35,438 nucleotides of DNA, from contig JAFYMP010000077.1 of assembly GCA_017556585.1 (NCBI GenBank), positions 1 through 35,438 on the forward strand, in the 5' to 3' direction. Below the pieces are notes generated by a model. The model saw only the letters and a list, made by a program, of their open reading frames with translations, was not told the DNA's origin and did not search any database. A program made the translations under genes and the position numbers. Positions 24,930 to 35,155 of the stretch are shown one piece after another. Source of the stretch: Bacteroidaceae bacterium. GTDB lineage: Bacteria > Bacteroidota > Bacteroidia > Bacteroidales > Bacteroidaceae. How positions within the stretch are numbered: the first letter of the stretch is position 1; the number at the start of each line of letters is the position of its first letter.

Positions 24930-26852
24930 GTGGAAGAAGGATTTATAAAAAAATGTAGCCGATTAGTGTCTCGGTATTTGAATACCAGAGTAGTGTTCGT
25001 AATCGACGTTCTGTTATCTGTCTTGGCCTCTTTCTTGATGCTATTGGCTGCGAGTGGCACCGATAAAGGTGCCGAAATAACTCCGTTTATAATCCTGCAA
25101 TGGAGTATCGCTTCAGGAGTGTTTTTTGCAATTGCTTCAATAATAACCAGAAGTTACAGAATCATTATTCGTCACTCTACAATGCGCGATTTGGCGAATT
25201 TAGTGACAGTGGTTACTCTTTCAGAATTGATGCTGGGTGCAGTAGTTTATATAATCGAAGATACGCCATTATCTGAGATATTATGGTTGATGTTGCTTGA
25301 TTCCATATTTACCTTTTTGCTTCTGATTGTAGTACGTTTGGCTATGATTGTAAGCTATGATCTGTTTAAATCTAAAATGCGTGAACGTATGAACATAAAA
25401 CGTATTTTAGTATATGGAACACACGAAAAATCAATTGCAGTTATTACACGTCTTTTGGATTCTTCACACTATGACATAGTGGGCTTTATAAGTCCCTCTT
25501 CTTCTGACAAACGTATCAGGATTTCCAACTTCAAGGTATATCATGCCAGAACAGAAGAGGAATTGAACAATCTTGCTACCGATTTGGGTTTAAGCGGTAT
25601 TTTGTTCACTACAGAACAGGATGCTCAGACAGAACAGGATAGACTTATCCAAATGGCAACATCCTTGAATATAAAGATATTGGTGGTACCAAGTATCAAT
25701 GAAGTTGAAGGTAATAACTTATTGCATTACAGAGTTCGCGAAATTAAAATTGAAGATCTTTTAGGTCGTCCTGAGATAGAGATTTCAATAGATGAAATTA
25801 AAAAGAGATTTTCCGATAATGTTATTTTGGTAACAGGTGCTGCAGGTTCTATTGGTTCTGAGCTTTGCAGACAGTTGGCTCAATTTAATGTTAAGAAATT
25901 GGTGTTGTTTGACAATGCAGAAACACCTATGCACAATATCAGATTGGAATTAGAAGATACATATCCCGATTTGAACTTTGTTCCTGTAATAGGTGATGTA
26001 CGCAGTGTGGACAGACTCGATTTTGTGTTCCGTGAACATCGTCCTTCTGTAGTATTCCATGCAGCAGCATATAAACACGTTCCTTTGATGGAGGAGAATC
26101 CATGCGAAGCTGTGCATGTAAATGTTATAGGTTCTAAAAATGTGGCAGATAAATGTTTGCAGTATGGAGTGGAGATGATGGTTATGGTAAGTACCGATAA
26201 AGCCGTTAATCCTACAAATATAATGGGTTGCACCAAGAGATTGGCAGAAATATATGTTCAGTCATTAGGATTGGCATTTACCAGTGGTAAGCAGGAGGGT
26301 AACACAAGATTTGTAACAACCAGATTCGGTAATGTGCTTGGTTCAAATGGTTCTGTTATACCTCGTTTCCGCAAACAGATTGAATGTGGCGGTCCGGTTA
26401 CAGTTACAGATCCGGATATTAACCGTTTCTTTATGACTATTCCTGAAGCTTGTCGTTTGGTTATGGAGGCAGCTACAATATCTACAGGTAATCAGATAGT
26501 AGTATTCGATATGGGTACTCCTGTTAAGATAGTGGATCTTGCCCGCAGAATGATAGAATTGGCAGGTTTTGTTCCTGAAAAAGATATTCCAATAGTATTT
26601 ACAGGATTGCGTCCGGGTGAAAAATTATATGAAGAGGTGCTTTCTACAAGAGAGAATACTGACCCAACATCGCACGACCGAATTAGAGTTGCCAGAGTTC
26701 GTGAGTACGATTATGACGAGGTTAAGGCTATTTTTGAAAAGATGGAAAGATTGGCTCTTGACGTTTATATTCCGGATATGGTACGCTTGATGAAAGAGAC
26801 TGTACCTGAGTTTAAATCGAAGAACTCCAGATTTGAAATCTACGATAAATAG
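24930..26852 (+). CDS. Membrane-bound CapD/WbpM-type nucleotide-sugar dehydratase
   Basis: This 640-residue protein has about four N-terminal membrane segments (residues 20-150), a first Rossmann-like domain (RILVYGTHEKS) and a C-terminal extended SDR domain with VTGAAGSIGSELCRQL (about 297-312). The catalytic region reads STDKAVNPTNIMGCTKR, with Met where soluble relatives have Tyr, the WbpM-type arrangement. Relatives remove water from UDP-GlcNAc (4,6-dehydratase), the first step towards deoxyamino sugars for capsule, O-antigen or glycoprotein glycans. The start is GTG 24930; no better ATG lies upstream. The aminotransferase at 28490 could act on its product. upxY follows 33 nt later. Confidence 0.88.
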   Translation: MEEGFIKKCSRLVSRYLNTRVVFVIDVLLSVLASFLMLLAASGTDKGAEITPFIILQWSIASGVFFAIASIITRSYRIIIRHSTMRDLANLVTVVTLSELMLGAVVYIIEDTPLSEILWLMLLDSIFTFLLLIVVRLAMIVSYDLFKSKMRERMNIKRILVYGTHEKSIAVITRLLDSSHYDIVGFISPSSSDKRIRISNFKVYHARTEEELNNLATDLGLSGILFTTEQDAQTEQDRLIQMATSLNIKILVVPSINEVEGNNLLHYRVREIKIEDLLGRPEIEISIDEIKKRFSDNVILVTGAAGSIGSELCRQLAQFNVKKLVLFDNAETPMHNIRLELEDTYPDLNFVPVIGDVRSVDRLDFVFREHRPSVVFHAAAYKHVPLMEENPCEAVHVNVIGSKNVADKCLQYGVEMMVMVSTDKAVNPTNIMGCTKRLAEIYVQSLGLAFTSGKQEGNTRFVTTRFGNVLGSNGSVIPRFRKQIECGGPVTVTDPDINRFFMTIPEACRLVMEAATISTGNQIVVFDMGTPVKIVDLARRMIELAGFVPEKDIPIVFTGLRPGEKLYEEVLSTRENTDPTSHDRIRVARVREYDYDEVKAIFEKMERLALDVYIPDMVRLMKETVPEFKSKNSRFEIYDK

Positions 26853-26885: not shown

Positions 26886-27491
26886 ATGAAGGGTCCTATT
26901 GATAAAGATAGTCTGCTTATTCCTAAAAGATTTATTCCGGTAGATCAGGCGGGTGAACTGGATACTTTTTATTCCAATAAACATTGGTTTGTTGGTTATG
27001 TTCAGTATTGTCATGAACAGAGAGTAGCCGATAAATTAGCCTCTAAAGGTGTGGAGTATTATCTCCCGATGCAGAAACGAAAGAAACAGTGGAGTGATAG
27101 GGTTAAGACTGTCAATGTGATGATAATGCCACGATATATATTTATTCGTTGCAAACCATCTGAACGAATACCACTTATTCAGGAAATATCTGATTTGAAG
27201 AGTTATATGATGGATAAAACTAACCATACACCGGTAATTGTAAAAGATGATCAGATGGATAAATTTCGTAAGATGGTAGATTACGAGACATTATCGGTAG
27301 TGGTAGATCCTACTCAGTTTGAACCGGGTGAAATGGTAGAGGTGGTATGCGGACCTTTAGCAGGCCAGGTATTGGAACTTATAGATGTGAATGGTACCAA
27401 ATGTATAGCTCTTGGTTTGGGGATACTTGGCACCGCCAGAATGGAGATACCTCTTTCGTATGTTGAAAAGGTGAAGAAGAATATTACTTGA
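26886..27491 (+). CDS. UpxY-type NusG paralogue (transcription antiterminator)
   Basis: This 201-residue protein has an NGN domain starting at HWFVGYVQYCHEQRVADKL (about residues 33-51), with the YLPMQKRKKQW and MPRYIFIRC segments, and a KOW domain around FEPGEMVEVVCGPLAGQVLE. It has an N-terminal extension of about 30 residues and is diverged from the housekeeping NusG at 2226. In Bacteroides, UpxY proteins head capsule loci and prevent premature termination in the long operon. Here it comes second, after the dehydratase, no UpxZ follows, and a strong terminator lies 25 nt after its stop. Its last 8 bp overlap the opposing gene. It may act in trans or be a relic of a larger locus. Confidence 0.85.
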   Translation: MKGPIDKDSLLIPKRFIPVDQAGELDTFYSNKHWFVGYVQYCHEQRVADKLASKGVEYYLPMQKRKKQWSDRVKTVNVMIMPRYIFIRCKPSERIPLIQEISDLKSYMMDKTNHTPVIVKDDQMDKFRKMVDYETLSVVVDPTQFEPGEMVEVVCGPLAGQVLELIDVNGTKCIALGLGILGTARMEIPLSYVEKVKKNIT

Positions 27492-28338
27492 AATCAACGT
27501 ATGTTTCCGATATATTAAAATCAGATAGACATTCAGTAATGTGCTGTCTGATTTTTTTGTTATTCTCTTCTGAATAAACTTTTGGCAGAATCTGTACTAT
27601 TGCAGCACTATTTTCTCCATCTAAACTCCATATTTTAATATCTTCTACTTTTTCTATTCCGTTTATAGAAGAGATGATATCTTTAATTTTGTCTATAGAA
27701 ATACCTGCAGGTACTCTGTCAAACAAAATAGAGAATATTCGTATAGAACTGCCTACTACATTTATTATTATGTATGTGGATATAGCTATTGAAAGTGCTG
27801 AATCAAGCAATGGAATATGTACGAAAAGCAGAATAATGCCGGCTATCAAAATGGTAGCCCAACCCATTGTGTCTGCTATCATGTGAATAGATACCAGTCT
27901 TTCGTTCTCGCCCGATGCTTTTCTTGTTCTGTATGCTGCAAATCCTTTGATTGCAATACCCGTCAAAGAGATCCAAATCATTCCTTCTGCAACAATATCG
28001 CCATGTGAGTGGTGGATTTCAATAGCTCCAATGCTTTCGGTTATTATTAAAATGGAACTGGTAAAAATCACAATGGCGCTGATGATAGCTCCAATAAGCG
28101 GAATACGCCCCATTCCGAAACTGAAACTTTTGAACTGTTTTTTTTCTGATAACCATTGGAAAAACCAGGCAGAACCTATTGTAAACGTACAGCCTAAATT
28201 ATGTACAGATTCAGCCTTTATGGCGTTACTATTCATTATGTGGCCACCTACAAAAGCTAAAACAGTAAAAAACAGGTTGAGCCAGAATGCGGTTTTAATG
28301 TTACCTGTTGTATGGTTATGGTGCTCTTTGTATTGCAT
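27484..28338 (-). CDS. Cation diffusion facilitator family transporter
   Basis: This 284-residue protein has a His-containing N terminus (KEHHNHT), about six membrane segments and a C-terminal cytoplasmic domain (from about residue 205). This is the CDF layout for export of zinc or related divalent metals by proton exchange. The helix-5 metal site HMIAD (His152, Asp156) is intact. The helix-2 site reads AESVHNLGC, so the usual final Asp is Cys50, which may change metal preference. The ATG at 28338 lies 20 nt downstream of an exact -7 box. Its stop overlaps that of upxY, and the 3' coding region contains the upxY terminator. Confidence 0.87.
   Translation of the reverse strand: MQYKEHHNHTTGNIKTAFWLNLFFTVLAFVGGHIMNSNAIKAESVHNLGCTFTIGSAWFFQWLSEKKQFKSFSFGMGRIPLIGAIISAIVIFTSSILIITESIGAIEIHHSHGDIVAEGMIWISLTGIAIKGFAAYRTRKASGENERLVSIHMIADTMGWATILIAGIILLFVHIPLLDSALSIAISTYIIINVVGSSIRIFSILFDRVPAGISIDKIKDIISSINGIEKVEDIKIWSLDGENSAAIVQILPKVYSEENNKKIRQHITECLSDFNISETYVDFK
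27517..27558 (+). terminator. Terminator of the dehydratase-upxY unit, inside the CDF gene
   Basis: AAAATCAGATAG plus ACATT (27517-27533) pairs with AATGT, a bulged G, CTG and TCTGATTTT (27538-27555): 17 pairs, one G-T, loop CAGT. The plus strand runs into seven T bases (27552-27558). The element is wholly inside the CDF coding sequence on the other strand, 25 nt past the upxY stop. On the minus strand only four T bases follow, so any effect there is weaker. Confidence 0.85.
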
Positions 28339-28489: not shown

Positions 28490-29590
28490 ATGGTGAAGTT
28501 CCTGGATTTGCAGAAGATAACTGCTCTCTATTCCGATGAAATTAATAGAGCAATAGAGAGAACTACTAACGGCGGATGGTTTCTGAACGGAGTGGAAGTA
28601 CAACTATTTGAAAAGGAGTATGCCCATTACATAGGAACTAATCGTTGTGTAAGTTGTGCAAATGGATTAGATGCTCTCTGGTTGATTTTTCGTGCTTATA
28701 TAGAGTTGGGCAGATTGAAACCGGGCGATGAAGTAATAGTACCTGCAAATACATTTATTGCAACGGTGTTGGCTATTTCGGAAAACGGACTTATTCCTGT
28801 TTTTGCAGAACCTGATGGTAATTCTTTGCAAATAAGCCTATCAGCTGTGAAATCTGTAATGACCCCAAAAACAAAAGCTATATGTATAGTGCATCTGTAC
28901 GGACGCTGTGCATTTACCCCTGAATTGGCAGATTTTTGTAAAACAAGTGGTTTGCTGATGGTAGAAGATAATGCTCAGGCACATGGGTGTAGATATGGTA
29001 ATTCAAAGACAGGTTCTTTGGGAGATGCAGCAGGTCATAGTTTCTATCCCGGAAAGATTTTGGGTGCCTTGGGCGATGGTGGTGCAGTGACTACAAACGA
29101 CAATGAATTGGCGGATGTGATTCGTGCGTTGGCAAATTATGGTTCCGAAAAGAAATACTATTGTGGTTTTAAAGGAAAAAACAGCCGTCTTGATGAAATT
29201 CAAGCAGCCGTTTTGCGTATTAAGTTAAAATCATTGGAAAATGATATAGCTGCCAGAAAACGTGTGGCGCAGTTTTATGTAGATAATATTACAAACCCAA
29301 AGGTGACATTGCCGGGTAAAGAACTTTTGACCGACCATGTATATCATCTTTTCCCTGTATTGTGTGCAGAAAGAGACAGATTACAAAAGTATCTGTTTGA
29401 GAATGGTGTAGAGACTGTGATACATTATCCTGTACCCCCACATAAGCAGATTTGTTACCAAGAGTATAATTCAATATCGTTGCCTGTAACAGAAAGACTG
29501 GCTGCACAAGAATTGAGTTTGCCTATGAGCCCGGTGCTTACCGAAGCAGAGATGAATAAGGTTGTAGAGTGCGTGAATAGCTTTGAATGA
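28490..29590 (+). CDS. DegT/DnrJ/EryC1-family sugar aminotransferase
   Basis: This 366-residue PLP enzyme starts with the family N terminus VKFLDLQKI and has the cofactor region VEDNAQAHG and the PLP-lysine segment [16 protein letters not shown] (Lys at about residue 188). Relatives transfer an amino group from glutamate to a keto nucleotide sugar, for example in 3-amino-3,6-dideoxyhexose synthesis. A substrate could come from the dehydratase at 24930. The conserved N terminus supports ATG 28490 even though the promoter leaves almost no leader. It heads a run of five genes on the same strand; galE begins 16 nt after its stop. Confidence 0.9.
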
Positions 29591-29606: not shown

Positions 29607-30623
29607 ATGAATATATTAGTTACAGGTGGAGCCGGATATATAGGCTCTCACACATTGATTGAACTTTATAATGCGGGTCATACTGCAGTAGTTGTAGATA
29701 ACCTTTCTAATTCCAGTAAGGAGAGTCTTAAAAGAGTAGCACAGATAATAGGAGCTGAGATTCCTTTTTATCAGGTAGATATTCGCGATAAGGCAGGATT
29801 GGAACAGGTTCTGGAAAAGCATCAGTGTGATGCCTGCATACATTTTGCCGGCTTGAAAGCAGTGGGCGAATCGGTTTCCAAACCATTGGAATATTACGAA
29901 AATAATATTAATGGAACTTTGGTGTTGGTTGATGTTTTGCGCCGTTACAATTGCAAGAATATTATCTTTTCTTCAAGTGCAACAGTGTATGGTACACCTG
30001 CCATAATTCCTATAACAGAAGATTGTCCTAAGGGAGAATGTACAAATCCTTATGGTTGGACTAAGAGTATGTTGGAACAGGTACTTACCGATATGCAAAA
30101 AGCCGATAACAGCTGGAATGTAGTGCTACTGAGATATTTCAATCCTATAGGAGCGCATAAAAGTGGCCTGATAGGCGAAAATCCTAATGGTATTCCTAAT
30201 AACCTGATGCCTTATATTACTCAGGTTGCAGTGGGAAAACGCGATGAATTGGGCGTTTTTGGTAATGATTATGATACTCACGATGGTACCGGAGTACGTG
30301 ACTATATTCATGTAGTAGATTTGGCGCGTGGTCATGTTAAGGCATTGCAAGCTATTCAGAACGGTTGCGGTTTGGGACTTTATAATCTGGGTACAGGTCA
30401 GGGATATTCTGTACTTGATGTGGTAAATGCGTTCGAAAAAGTTAATGGAGTAAAAGTTCCATACAAAATACAACCACGTCGTCCGGGCGATATAGCAACC
30501 TGTTATAGTGATCCTGCAAAAGCATATAAAGAATTGGGTTGGAAGGCAGAATTCGGCATAGAGGAGATGTGTCGTGACAGTTGGAACTGGCAGAAAAACA
30601 ACCCTAATGGATTTGAAGAATAA
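29607..30623 (+). CDS. galE: UDP-glucose 4-epimerase
   Basis: This 338-residue extended SDR protein starts [20 protein letters not shown] (NAD-binding GxxGxxG at residues 7-13). It has the SSSATVYG segment and the catalytic YGWTK (YxxxK). The late [14 protein letters not shown] is characteristic of GalE. It interconverts UDP-glucose and UDP-galactose; broader activity on N-acetyl or uronic forms cannot be excluded. I chose ATG 29607 because the earlier in-frame ATG overlaps the aminotransferase and the canonical N terminus starts here. It precedes a GHMP kinase by 21 nt. Confidence 0.93.
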
Positions 30624-30644: not shown

Positions 30645-31820
30645 ATGAAGTGCGTAGAGAAATTTGAAGAGATTTACAAGAAAAGCCCCGATGCAGTGGC
30701 ATTCTGTCCCTATAGAATTTGTCCTATAGGTGCCCATGTTGACCATCAGTTAGGTAGAATTACCGGTCTGGCAATAGATAAAGGTATTCATTTGGCTTAT
30801 AGCAAGAAACAGAACGGTGTTATAGAATTGGCATCATTGCAGTTTGATAAACGTTCTCAGTTCCATATTCGTGAAATATCAGATATAAAATGCAATGACT
30901 GGGCAGACTATCTGCGTGGTGTTACTATAGAACTTTCTCAGAAATATACACTATCATACGGTCTTTGCGGTGTAATAGAAGGAACTCTGCCTATTGGCGG
31001 TTTATCCTCATCGGCAGCAGTATCAATAGTATATCTCTCTGCACTTTGTAAGGTTAATGGCATTAATCTTTCTCCTATTGAAATGATTATGATGGCTATG
31101 GGATCTGAAAACAAGTACGTAGGTGTAAGCAGTGGTAAATTGGATCAGAGTTGTGAGGTATATTCAAAGAAAGATCATCTTCTTTATCTTGATACAAAAG
31201 ATGATAGCTATGAATTGATTCCTACTGCACCAGCAATGAAACCATACGAAATAGCTATCTTCTTTAGTGGAGTGGAACGAACTTTAGCCGGTAGTAAGTT
31301 CAATATGCGTGTGGATGAATGTAGAAGTGCCGCGTATGCGCTTATGGCTTATTCTGGAATGGAGTATGGAAAGTTCCAGGAGACCTTCTTTAGAGATGTT
31401 CCTCGTACTGTTTATGATGAATACAAAGAGAGGCTTCCTGAAAACTGGCGTCGCAGAGCTGAACATTGGTTTACTGAACAGGAGCGTGTTGTGGCAGGCG
31501 CAGAAGCTTGGCGCAGAGGCGATATAGAAGAGTATGGCCGTTTAAGCTTTGAAAGTGGTAATTCATCTATCTACAATTGGGAAACAGGTTCTCCTGAACT
31601 TAAAAAATTGTATGATATTATGACTCAAACCGATGGTATATATGGCGGTCGTTTTAGTGGTGCAGGATTTAAGGGATGTTGTATGGCATTGATAGATCCG
31701 GCATACAGAGAACAGATAAACGAAAAGGTTACAAGAGAATATTTAAAGGCATTCCCTGAATTGGAGGGTAAATATTCATCATATTTCTGTCAGAGTGCCG
31801 ATGGTGTTATGTTTCTTTAA
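30645..31820 (+). CDS. GHMP sugar kinase resembling galacturonokinase
   Basis: This 391-residue GHMP kinase has motif 1 PYRICPIGAHVDH (about residues 22-34), the ATP loop PIGGLSSSAA (116-125), a KLDQS active-site segment (165-169) and motif 3 FSGAGFKGCC. In galactokinases motif 1 reads GEHTDY; here the sugar-binding Glu is Ala30. From memory, plant galacturonokinase has the same PYRICP...GAH.DH motif, the same RFSGAGF.GCC motif and a similar AEH.F...RV..G.EAW stretch before it. A C1 kinase for galacturonate or a related sugar is therefore more likely than an ordinary galactokinase. The nucleotidyltransferase 12 nt downstream would activate its product. Confidence 0.8.
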   Translation: MKCVEKFEEIYKKSPDAVAFCPYRICPIGAHVDHQLGRITGLAIDKGIHLAYSKKQNGVIELASLQFDKRSQFHIREISDIKCNDWADYLRGVTIELSQKYTLSYGLCGVIEGTLPIGGLSSSAAVSIVYLSALCKVNGINLSPIEMIMMAMGSENKYVGVSSGKLDQSCEVYSKKDHLLYLDTKDDSYELIPTAPAMKPYEIAIFFSGVERTLAGSKFNMRVDECRSAAYALMAYSGMEYGKFQETFFRDVPRTVYDEYKERLPENWRRRAEHWFTEQERVVAGAEAWRRGDIEEYGRLSFESGNSSIYNWETGSPELKKLYDIMTQTDGIYGGRFSGAGFKGCCMALIDPAYREQINEKVTREYLKAFPELEGKYSSYFCQSADGVMFL

Positions 31821-31832
31821 TTGATTGATAAT

Positions 31833-32570
31833 ATGAAATGTTTGATATTGGCAGCAGGATATGCCACAAGATTGTATCCTCTAACAGAAAACTTTCCTAA
31901 ACCATTGCTTAAGGTTGGAGAAAAAACCATTCTTGATTGGTTGGTAGATGATATTGCAGCTGCAGGATTGGTTGATGAATATGTTGTAATTTCTAACCAT
32001 AAGTTTGCACATCACTTTGAAGAGTGGGCTGCAACGCGCAAAGAGCAGATATCGGTAGTGGATGATGGTACAGAGACTAATGAAACACGTTTAGGTGCTG
32101 TTCGTGATATTCAGTTTGCCATTGATGCCCTGAAACTGGACGACGATATGTTAGTTATAGCAGGCGATAATGTCCTGGACTTTAGCCTGACTCATTTCAT
32201 ACGTTATGCAGATAGTAAGCAGAGTTCTGCAATAATGCGTTATTTTGAACCGGTGGAGGCAAAACTACGCAAGTGTGGTATAGTGGAGATAGATGCTGAT
32301 GACAGAATTATATCCATGGAAGAGAAGCCGGCAGAACCTAAATCTCATTGGTGCTGTCCTCCATTTTACTATTACACAAAGGCAGATGCTCAGCGAATAC
32401 CACAGGCTATAGAGTCAGGTTGCGGTGTGGATGCTCCGGGTAGTTTTATAGCATGGCTTGCTACACAAACTACCGTATATGCAATGGAGATGCCAGGCAG
32501 TCGCTATGATATAGGTAATCTGGAAAGCTATAAGGAGGTTTCATCAATTTATAAAGGAATAGTAAAGTAA
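31833..32570 (+). CDS. Sugar-1-phosphate nucleotidyltransferase
   Basis: This 245-residue protein has the nucleotidyltransferase signature LAAGYATRLYPLTENFPKPL (about residues 6-25), a metal site VIAGDNVLDF, the EEKP segment (SMEEKPAEPKSHW) and the late GSRYDIGNLESY. It should join a sugar-1-phosphate to an NTP, making an NDP-sugar and pyrophosphate. The lack of a left-handed helix domain sets it apart from GlmU; it is closest to short RmlA/ManC-like enzymes. I chose ATG 31833, since an earlier TTG directly follows the kinase stop. Paired with the kinase it forms a two-step salvage route. Its stop overlaps the GSCFA start (TAATG). Confidence 0.88.
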   Translation: MKCLILAAGYATRLYPLTENFPKPLLKVGEKTILDWLVDDIAAAGLVDEYVVISNHKFAHHFEEWAATRKEQISVVDDGTETNETRLGAVRDIQFAIDALKLDDDMLVIAGDNVLDFSLTHFIRYADSKQSSAIMRYFEPVEAKLRKCGIVEIDADDRIISMEEKPAEPKSHWCCPPFYYYTKADAQRIPQAIESGCGVDAPGSFIAWLATQTTVYAMEMPGSRYDIGNLESYKEVSSIYKGIVK

Positions 32571-33517
32571 TGAAACTGCAAACAACCATAGAAATCCCAA
32601 AAAAGGAGTTGACTCTTAATTATAAAGACTCCATTTTATGTATGGGTTCATGTTTTGCCGATGAGATAGGAAGAAGGTTGACCGATTGTTATTTTGATAC
32701 AATGGTAAATCCTTTTGGAGTACTCTTTAACCCAATGTCAATTTCTAATGCCTTAGGTTTGATGGAGGGATATGGTATAAACAGCTATGGTTGCAGTTTT
32801 GTGGAATCGGATGTAATTAAGACTCCGGCCGGTTATTGCTCCTTCCATCATCATGGAAGTTTTGCAAAAGAATCGCCGGAGGCCTTTTTGAGTAATGCCA
32901 ATGAAAAATTGGCCAATTCATCGGACTTTTTCTATCGTCAAGGGTGGGTTATTATAACTTTAGGAACAGCTTATGTGTATAGGGAAAAGGAGAATGGAAT
33001 GGTTGTTTCAAACTGTCATAAGCTTCCTGCTTCTCAATTCAATCGTTGTTTATTGACAGTTGAAGAGGTAGTGAATGCATTATCCCAATATGTAAATGCA
33101 AATCCTGACAGACAATGGGTGTTTACTGTTAGTCCTATACGTCATATTGCAGACGGATTGCATCAGAATCAGATAAGTAAATCGACACTGCTATTAGCTA
33201 TACAACAGATAGTGGAGAAATACCCTAACGCTCACTATTTTCCGTCGTACGAAATAGTTCTGGATGAGTTGCGCGACTATCGTTTTTATGCGGAAGATAT
33301 GGTGCATCCTTCAAAACAGGCAGTGGATTACATATTTGAACGCTTTATAGACTGGGCTTTGGCAGATAATGAAAAAAACAGGTTCCATCAGGCCGTAAAA
33401 ATACGGCAGATGATGGAACATAAAATTATGAATCCCAATTCAGAACAAGCTAAATCTTTTATTCAGGATAGGGAACGTCTATACGAAAATCTGATGAAAG
33501 AGATAGGTCGTATCTAA
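32570..33517 (+). CDS. GSCFA-domain protein (SGNH-hydrolase-like)
   Basis: This 315-residue protein carries the name-giving motif MGSCFADEIGRRL (GSCFA at residues 26-30), a VNPFGVLFNP segment, the VSPIRHIADGLHQNQISK segment and the late DMVHPSKQAV with a His that could be catalytic. The family is thought to be related to SGNH/PC-esterase acyl hydrolases or transferases, but I know of no firm biochemical role. There is no signal peptide. It overlaps the nucleotidyltransferase by one base (TAATG), so it is probably translated with it and acts in the same pathway. Confidence 0.85.
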   Translation: MKLQTTIEIPKKELTLNYKDSILCMGSCFADEIGRRLTDCYFDTMVNPFGVLFNPMSISNALGLMEGYGINSYGCSFVESDVIKTPAGYCSFHHHGSFAKESPEAFLSNANEKLANSSDFFYRQGWVIITLGTAYVYREKENGMVVSNCHKLPASQFNRCLLTVEEVVNALSQYVNANPDRQWVFTVSPIRHIADGLHQNQISKSTLLLAIQQIVEKYPNAHYFPSYEIVLDELRDYRFYAEDMVHPSKQAVDYIFERFIDWALADNEKNRFHQAVKIRQMMEHKIMNPNSEQAKSFIQDRERLYENLMKEIGRI

Positions 33518-33799: not shown

Positions 33800-35155
33800 A
33801 TGAAAAAGTTATTCTCTATTTCTATTATGATGACACTGATGATGTCGTCATTGTTGATTTCTTGTTCACCTGACGATCCTACAGGTGGTGTTGAAAAACC
33901 AGACAACGTAGTTACAAACTTAGCTACCGATGTTACTCCGTTTTCTTTAACTTTAAATGGTGATATTAATAACTACAGTGTTGCAGCAGTTAGCCGTGGT
34001 CAGTATGGCTTTCTGTATGTTGTGTCTAATGAGATGGACGAAATTGCAGCAAAAAATCTTTTTGAAGAATATTTAGCTAATGGCAGTGCCACAGGTTGTA
34101 AGAAACGTTATGCAGTTAATCTGTTGACAGGTAATGCTTTTTCTGTTAATATCATAGATCTAACTCCTAATTCAAAGGTCTTTTATTGTGCTTTGTTTGA
34201 AACAGAAAAGGGTGATGTGTTTATAGGAGAAGTGCAATCTGTAATCAGTTCAGAGTTCACGCCTTCTGTTAAGGCTACCAATGTGTTGGCAGCCAGACTT
34301 TTGGATTGTAAATTAAAAGTTGATATAGACTTTTCTGGTGCAACAAATAAAGAGTGTTTATGCGGAATTTATTATTCTGATTCAGAGGAGACTTTACTTG
34401 CAGGCGGAATACAACAGCAGTATAAGGGCCCTTGGAAACAAGAAGGATTTGAAATTAATATATCACAAATAAAAGCAAATACCACATACTATGTGAGACC
34501 ATACGTATATTATAAGGCTGAGAAGAAGTATTATTACGGAGATATAATTGAGTTTACAACATTAAATCCGGACGATTTTGCTGTCGATATGGGATTAAGC
34601 GTAAAATGGGCATCTTGTGATTTAGGTGCGTCACAGCCTTTGGAAATAGGATGGGCTTTTCAGTATCTGAAAAAGAATCCTGTGCCGTTATCTCTTTACT
34701 CATCTAATGAATATATGTCCTACGAAGACTATAACAGAATTGTTTCCGAAAATAATAGTGCTACTGAGCATGATGCAGCTACCTATTATTTGGGTGGCAA
34801 GTGGAGAATGCCTACTCTTGCGGAAGTAGAAGAACTTATTGCTAATATGGTAATGGAGGTAAAAACGCCAAATAATTTTGAGGATATAGTAAATGAACAT
34901 ATTGTTATATGGTCAAAAGCAAAACAAGGTGCTCATATTAAGTTTAACCATTTTGCAGTGCTTACTTCAACAGAAAACCTTGCAGTTGTAAGAACGCTCT
35001 ATAGATGGACTGCCACAGCAGATCCGGAAGTTGCATACGGTAGTTATTCTATGATGCCGAATTTGTATTATTTTGATGAGTATGATTATAAAGTTTATAC
35101 ATCATATTCAACTCCTATGATGGAATGCCTAATTCGTCCGGTATGTGATTATTGA
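33800..35155 (+). CDS. Surface lipoprotein with FISUMP-like C-terminal domain
   Basis: This 451-residue protein has a lipoprotein signal (LISC, Cys22), followed by SPDD, which resembles the Asp-rich export signal that sends Bacteroidota lipoproteins to the cell surface. Two beta-rich, fibronectin-III-like units (about residues 36-155 and 160-255) are followed by VDMGLSVKWASCDLGA (about 263-278), LGGKWRMPTLAEVEELI and a final CLIRPVCDY, typical of FISUMP/DUF1566-like domains. Such proteins are common at Bacteroidota surfaces and may bind glycans or host material; no function is known here. It is monocistronic, between its own -7 box and a terminator. Confidence 0.8.
   Translation: MKKLFSISIMMTLMMSSLLISCSPDDPTGGVEKPDNVVTNLATDVTPFSLTLNGDINNYSVAAVSRGQYGFLYVVSNEMDEIAAKNLFEEYLANGSATGCKKRYAVNLLTGNAFSVNIIDLTPNSKVFYCALFETEKGDVFIGEVQSVISSEFTPSVKATNVLAARLLDCKLKVDIDFSGATNKECLCGIYYSDSEETLLAGGIQQQYKGPWKQEGFEINISQIKANTTYYVRPYVYYKAEKKYYYGDIIEFTTLNPDDFAVDMGLSVKWASCDLGASQPLEIGWAFQYLKKNPVPLSLYSSNEYMSYEDYNRIVSENNSATEHDAATYYLGGKWRMPTLAEVEELIANMVMEVKTPNNFEDIVNEHIVIWSKAKQGAHIKFNHFAVLTSTENLAVVRTLYRWTATADPEVAYGSYSMMPNLYYFDEYDYKVYTSYSTPMMECLIRPVCDY

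Follow-up and report, generated by a model that had tools for sequence, protein, structure and literature searches.

Galacturonate is the main sugar of pectin, and in bacteria it is usually regarded as a fuel that is broken down through the hexuronate isomerase UxaC. Its recycling into UDP-galacturonate is described for plants and not for bacteria in the literature searched; among the matches listed from open-licence literature, no paper on a bacterial galacturonokinase (EC 2.7.1.44) was found by title or abstract start. In plants, according to PMC8636097, a galacturonokinase, At3g10700, works with a broad-range UDP-sugar pyrophosphorylase. In the zebrafish protein DrGKUP, a glucuronokinase and a putative UDP-glucuronate pyrophosphorylase are joined in one chain; its nucleotidyltransferase (NTase) has listed bacterial homologues including Prevotella, Alistipes, Butyrivibrio, and Ruminococcus, and an assay of 70 h showed only a little of its UDP-glucuronate product (all from PMC3938481). 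Bacteroides Fkp, an L-fucokinase/GDP-fucose pyrophosphorylase, follows the same salvage logic, i.e., a GHMP kinase and a pyrophosphorylase that activate a free sugar. Here, we report a kinase–NTase gene pair in a 35,438-nucleotide stretch of DNA from a gut Bacteroidaceae bacterium (GCA_017556585.1, contig JAFYMP010000077.1; hereafter the window). We read the pair as a putative galacturonokinase and UDP-galacturonate pyrophosphorylase that would feed surface polysaccharide, with a probability of roughly 0.6.

The two-step chemistry proposed for the pair is that of the plant route, which likewise uses a GHMP kinase, whereas the plant pyrophosphorylase is broad-range and the window has a small RmlA-like NTase in the operon. 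Like DrGKUP, the pair would bring together a uronate kinase of the GHMP superfamily and a small NTase of bacterial type; DrGKUP, however, is fused and acts on glucuronate, whereas here kinase and NTase are unfused and the kinase is of the galactokinase type. The pair and the gene that follows it are:

30645 to 31820, + strand: GHMP sugar-1-kinase, galactokinase fold, GAHVDH/GAGFKGCC type, 391 amino acids (aa); proposed galacturonokinase
31833 to 32570, + strand: RmlA/AglF-like sugar-1-phosphate NTase (PF00483, 104 bits); proposed UDP-galacturonate pyrophosphorylase
32570 to 33517, + strand: GSCFA protein, SGNH-hydrolase fold; proposed acyl esterase or acyltransferase

The NTase ATG at 31833 lies 12 nt past the kinase stop (the first in-frame TTG, at 31821, is an alternative start abutting the kinase), and the GSCFA start shares one base with the NTase end (TAATG, 32570); these coordinates confirm the three genes and the spacing given in an earlier, sequence-only reading of this DNA. 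Pfam domains above the gathering cut-off are GalKase_gal_bdg, GHMP N, and GHMP C in the kinase, NTP_transferase in the NTase, and GSCFA in the third protein. What was observed directly is the order and conservation of the genes, their co-occurrence, the fold, the fixed changes in sequence, an epimerase motif, and a gene fusion; from these we infer the substrate, the nucleotide, and the end use. Briefly, the kinase would phosphorylate free D-galacturonate at C1 with ATP as donor, and the NTase would convert galacturonate-1-phosphate and UTP to UDP-galacturonate. A UDP-glucuronate 4-epimerase encoded elsewhere in the genome (beside the pair or NTase-fused in relatives) would link the UDP-galacturonate and UDP-glucuronate pools, with UDP-glucuronate supplied by a UDP-glucose dehydrogenase (Ugd), and the uronate would then enter surface polysaccharide. 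The sequence-only reading had the two enzymes turn a free sugar into a nucleoside diphosphate (NDP)-sugar for surface polysaccharide, and this core seems right as far as sequence can tell.

The loci compared were 80 close (named) and 20 mid-distance ones (45–51% kinase identity), some of the fetched stretches being short. Kinase and NTase occur as a pair in 77/80 close loci, including two fusions; the NTase is separate and on the same strand in 75/80, in 74 of these within 200 bp of the kinase. Three close loci lack it (L100, L104, and L106): the contig ends 53 and ~220 bases past the kinase in L100 and L104, respectively, and the L106 genome has an NTase outside the fetched stretch. Among the mid-distance loci the NTase is within the stretch in 16/20, 15 times on the same strand, and the remaining four genomes have it elsewhere. 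We also surveyed 301 genomes of the family, taking the kinase as the group at ≥43% identity and the NTase at E ≤ 1e-30. The kinase was found in 84 genomes (a count that could miss kinase fragments weaker than the matches listed), the NTase in 86, and both in 82 (Fisher p 4e-66, relatedness ignored); the genes are ≤3.6 kb apart in 70 of these 82, and 10 of the other 12 have them on different contigs. Two genomes have the kinase without the NTase (G223, G288) and four the NTase without the kinase (G077, G179, G221, G234). All 17 Bacillota genomes found via kinase loci have the NTase. The genome of L108 has two NTase genes ~24 kb apart (G621:C39), both 76% identical to that of the window.

The kinase carries the motifs PYRICPIGAHVDHQ and RFSGAGFKGCC. 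The sequence-only reading had pointed to GAHVDH, in place of the galactokinase GEHTDY, and to RFSGAGFKGCC, and both are present in the translation. We aligned 134 kinase rows (111 distinct, window included), i.e., 112 close (89 distinct; the window and a copy included) and 22 mid-distance rows, and compared them with 28 galactokinases. Ala replaces the Glu of GEHTDY in 112/112 close and 22/22 mid-distance rows, and 28/28 galactokinases keep Glu. The Ala of GAHVDH is thus fixed, but its final His is looser (94/112 close, 22/22 mid-distance). The Gly of motif III (position 343) is Lys in 133 of the 134 rows and Arg in one, and Gly in 28/28 galactokinases; Arg24, Asp33, and Asp167 are kept in every kinase row and His31 in 133/134. 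The Glu of GEHTDY presumably contacts O6 in galactokinase, and a literature search on galactokinase residues gave no paper; the plant galacturonokinase presumably shares the GAH and GAGF motif versions with our kinase, as the sequence-only reading also states.

Against the galactokinase model TIGR00131 the kinase scores 197 bits, under the cut-off of 226.65. Its own genome (an assembly of 2.1 Mb in 103 contigs, 82.8% complete) has a separate GEHTDY galactokinase, adjoining galM, with 274 bits, above the cut-off. A phylogeny of the kinase, proposed with the sequence-only reading, places it outside the 28 galactokinases by a branch of 100% support in the Shimodaira–Hasegawa-like approximate likelihood ratio test. 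Please note that this is a quick, unrooted tree of 71 of 162 rows, near copies removed, and that the program warned of long branches meeting at the separating branch. An ordinary galactokinase is ruled out by the galactokinase elsewhere in the genome, the tree separation, and the fixed Glu-to-Ala and Gly-to-Lys/Arg changes. The kinase is thus seemingly a non-galactose GHMP sugar-1-kinase acting with its own NTase, most likely on galacturonate. A kinase for a neutral galacto-sugar (galactose, L-arabinose, D-fucose, or N-acetylgalactosamine), the uronate genes nearby being general polysaccharide-locus content, would suit the galactokinase/N-acetylgalactosamine kinase fold, as well as the galE gene that adjoins the pair in 18/21 GSCFA-containing loci and follows the NTase in L158; we consider it unlikely in view of the separate galactokinase, the two fixed changes, and the NTase–epimerase fusion and epimerase carboxylate motif described below.

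Galacturonate is suggested as the sugar by a UDP-glucuronate 4-epimerase-like short-chain dehydrogenase/reductase (SDR) near the kinase or fused to the NTase. It lies ≤2.2 kb from the kinase in 20/80 close and 13/20 mid-distance loci, fusions included (none in the window's locus), and on the kinase strand in all 33 loci that have it nearby. Ugd is in the stretch in 10/80 close and 4/20 mid-distance loci, and two examples pass TIGR03026. In two Prevotellaceae metagenome-assembled genomes (MAGs) SDR and NTase form one 611 aa frame (L071, 9207–11039, and L110; 87% identical). No further frame spanning both parts was found among the matches listed in 296 genomes of the phylum, and the sole over-long frame fetched (L156, 775 aa) had no NTase match. 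The fetched loci hold 62 SDR frames, including repeats and copies from SDR searches, and 57 of them have SSS before VYG plus Thr/Arg spaced by seven; of the five without the full motif, three are fragments and two are full-length frames (L148, L152) with SSS but not the T/R pattern. In Bacillus cereus UGAepi, as given in PMC7984243 and PMC12338863, Thr126, Ser127, Ser128, and Thr178 hold the substrate carboxylate and Arg185 the product carboxylate; matching our motif to these residue numbers is our own assignment. By this motif the partner SDR would have the carboxylate Ser/Thr and Arg residues of UGAepi and Klebsiella Gla in common, but its first motif residue is Ser, not Thr, and two of its copies are fused to an NTase. 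Because of the motif, we take the partner SDR as a probable UDP-glucuronate 4-epimerase. A 51% match was found in a K. pneumoniae record.

The genome of the window has this SDR and Ugd 14 bp apart on another contig, C82 (L154:11367-13741). This SDR is 81% identical to the copy of a Clostridiales MAG (L077), whereas most copies of the same genus are at 55–57%; it looks transferred between phyla. In the family survey the SDR (E ≤ 1e-90) is enriched with the kinase, not exclusive to it (74/84 kinase genomes vs 56/217 others). The link of the kinase to UDP-uronate genes would be supportive of a galacturonokinase, not defining. The same genes would also suit a route in which glucuronate is the kinase substrate and UDP-glucuronate the product of the NTase, as for the zebrafish protein, with the 4-epimerase then giving UDP-galacturonate: having the epimerase and Ugd nearby is compatible with both uronates, and the animal protein is a glucuronokinase–NTase with Prevotella, Alistipes, and Clostridia among the homologues listed for its NTase (PMC3938481). 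On the other side stands a kinase of the galactokinase type, and we hold this route to be rather improbable. A different sugar (acidic or rare) or a different nucleotide (dTDP, ADP, or GDP), set by the local surface polymer, seems to us a long shot. In its favor, the best NCBIfam match of the NTase, AglF, reaches 84 bits of a cut-off of 400, and the NTase is far below every NCBIfam cut-off matched, so that sequence leaves the nucleotide unfixed; DegT-like and RmlB genes are also near some pairs. Against it, the two genes keep together across Bacteroidota and Bacillota, where much of the rest of the neighborhood varies, and the protein fused to the NTase looks like an NDP-sugar epimerase and has the carboxylate motif.

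Several points weigh against a galacturonokinase–UDP-galacturonate pyrophosphorylase pair. Gene links cannot separate galacturonate from glucuronate, and the co-occurrence counts ignore relatedness. The SDR is found in 56 of the 217 genomes without the kinase, hence is not specific to the pair, and no SDR match was obtained in 10/84 kinase genomes; 60/80 close loci, the window's group included, have no epimerase in the fetched stretch. None of the SDR examples scanned reaches an NCBIfam equivalog cut-off, with no UDP-glucuronate 4-epimerase model among the matches listed, and the solved chain closest to the L077 SDR is 5u4q (366 bits), deposited as a dTDP-glucose 4,6-dehydratase, with WbgU (137 bits) and others far behind; a literature search for 5U4Q gave a single paper, on adenine binding. 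In the window's group the gene next to the pair is galE and not the SDR, and in G040, too, galE comes after the NTase. Free galacturonate would also be a substrate for UxaC, in competition with the kinase, and GH28 polygalacturonase was not found in the window's incomplete assembly by a search whose control matched 4/14 known genomes.

The features upstream of the pair, on the same strand, are:

24930 to 26852, + strand: CapD/FlaA1-like polysaccharide biosynthesis protein (PF02719, 390 bits)
26886 to 27491, + strand: UpxY-family antiterminator, capsule-locus context (NF033644, 132 bits vs cut-off 100)
28490 to 29590, + strand: DegT/DnrJ/EryC1 aminotransferase, surface-sugar context, upstream of the pair and in the same direction (PF01041, 323 bits)
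29607 to 30623, + strand: galE, canonical UDP-glucose 4-epimerase (TIGR01179, 468 bits vs cut-off 262)

The + strand order is CapD/FlaA1-like protein, UpxY, DegT aminotransferase, galE, kinase, NTase, GSCFA. Within 26886–28338, the UpxY antiterminator is set apart from the aminotransferase-to-GSCFA genes by an opposite-strand cation-efflux gene. A putative lipoprotein of 451 aa (33800–35155), for which Pfam gave no match at E ≤ 0.001, lies downstream of GSCFA. Among named genomes, a Bacteroidaceae MAG from yak rectum (L032) matches best, with a kinase 96% identical.

The sequence-only reading gave galE the task of interconverting the pair's product, which is now doubtful. The window's galE has SSATVYG and RYFNPIG in place of SSS and T/R, and it is the sole copy found (E ≤ 1e-30) in its 83%-complete assembly, therefore needing no special role at the pair; the fitting epimerase is the SDR on C82. 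GalE as a dedicated uronate epimerase is accordingly not favored; galE is probably not the uronate epimerase, although it is the neighbor of the pair in the window's group. In L158 (4075-5885; G040:C12), NTase then galE stand together and the kinase is on another contig.

The GSCFA protein has an invariant Ser27 and DxxH at 243–246, with both the PF08885 profile and the Ser...DxxH motif of the SGNH clan present. The same early reading treated kinase, NTase, and GSCFA as a unit; the first two recur together, as counted above, but GSCFA is in the stretch in 21/80 close and 0/20 mid-distance loci, and a conserved trio is rejected beyond the window's own genus-level group. GSCFA is a local, genus-level add-on to the pair, two genes after the kinase in 20/21 loci and upstream of it in L052. 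The latter locus is rearranged, with GalE, NTase, and GSCFA together ~4 kb upstream of the kinase and another NTase-like gene just upstream of it. Foldseek with the GSCFA model gave only weak matches: the template modelling score does not exceed 0.38 in the first five rows, and an unrelated resistance protein ranks first, ahead of an acetyl xylan esterase. The protein may act on acyl groups of the polymer, in the window's genus only, and we propose this tentatively.

As to the source of the sugar, GH28 is found in 1/21 genomes of the genus and UxaC in 20/21, the window's assembly included; free hexuronate is therefore probably handled inside these cells and perhaps released by other organisms. 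The sequence-only reading had named galacturonate from pectin: galacturonate is still the most likely sugar, with the SDR in 33/100 loci, whereas the pectin origin is weak. An arabinofuranosidase, a PETase-like hydrolase, and a GH9 enzyme are among the neighbors in genus-level loci; despite these, we do not claim a pectin operon, GH28 being missing from the matches in the assembly.

Bacillota-titled records make up 17/80 named loci. In a 57-row tree, Bacillota rows branch basally in the close clade and Bacteroidota rows emerge from within them, with weakly supported forks. This placement and the 81% identical SDR suggest transfer between phyla, with mis-binned contigs as an alternative. A wide spread in Bacillota is rejected, as the kinase type occurs in 2/299 sampled genomes, centre genome G612 included, and the other seven matches are GEHTDY galactokinases.

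On the broadest reading, to which we give even odds, Bacteroidales and Clostridia of the herbivore gut share a transferable cassette for UDP-galacturonate salvage. It would comprise a galacturonokinase, a small pyrophosphorylase dedicated to UDP-galacturonate, and a UDP-glucuronate 4-epimerase, with pyrophosphorylase and epimerase fused in some cases, and would allow these bacteria to make surface polymers out of uronate that pectin degraders set free, rather than use it as fuel. If true, a direct route to UDP-galacturonate would be a second fate for galacturonate in bacteria, matching the pathway of plants, and it might provide a bacterial partner for the NTase domain of the zebrafish protein, which is poorly understood.
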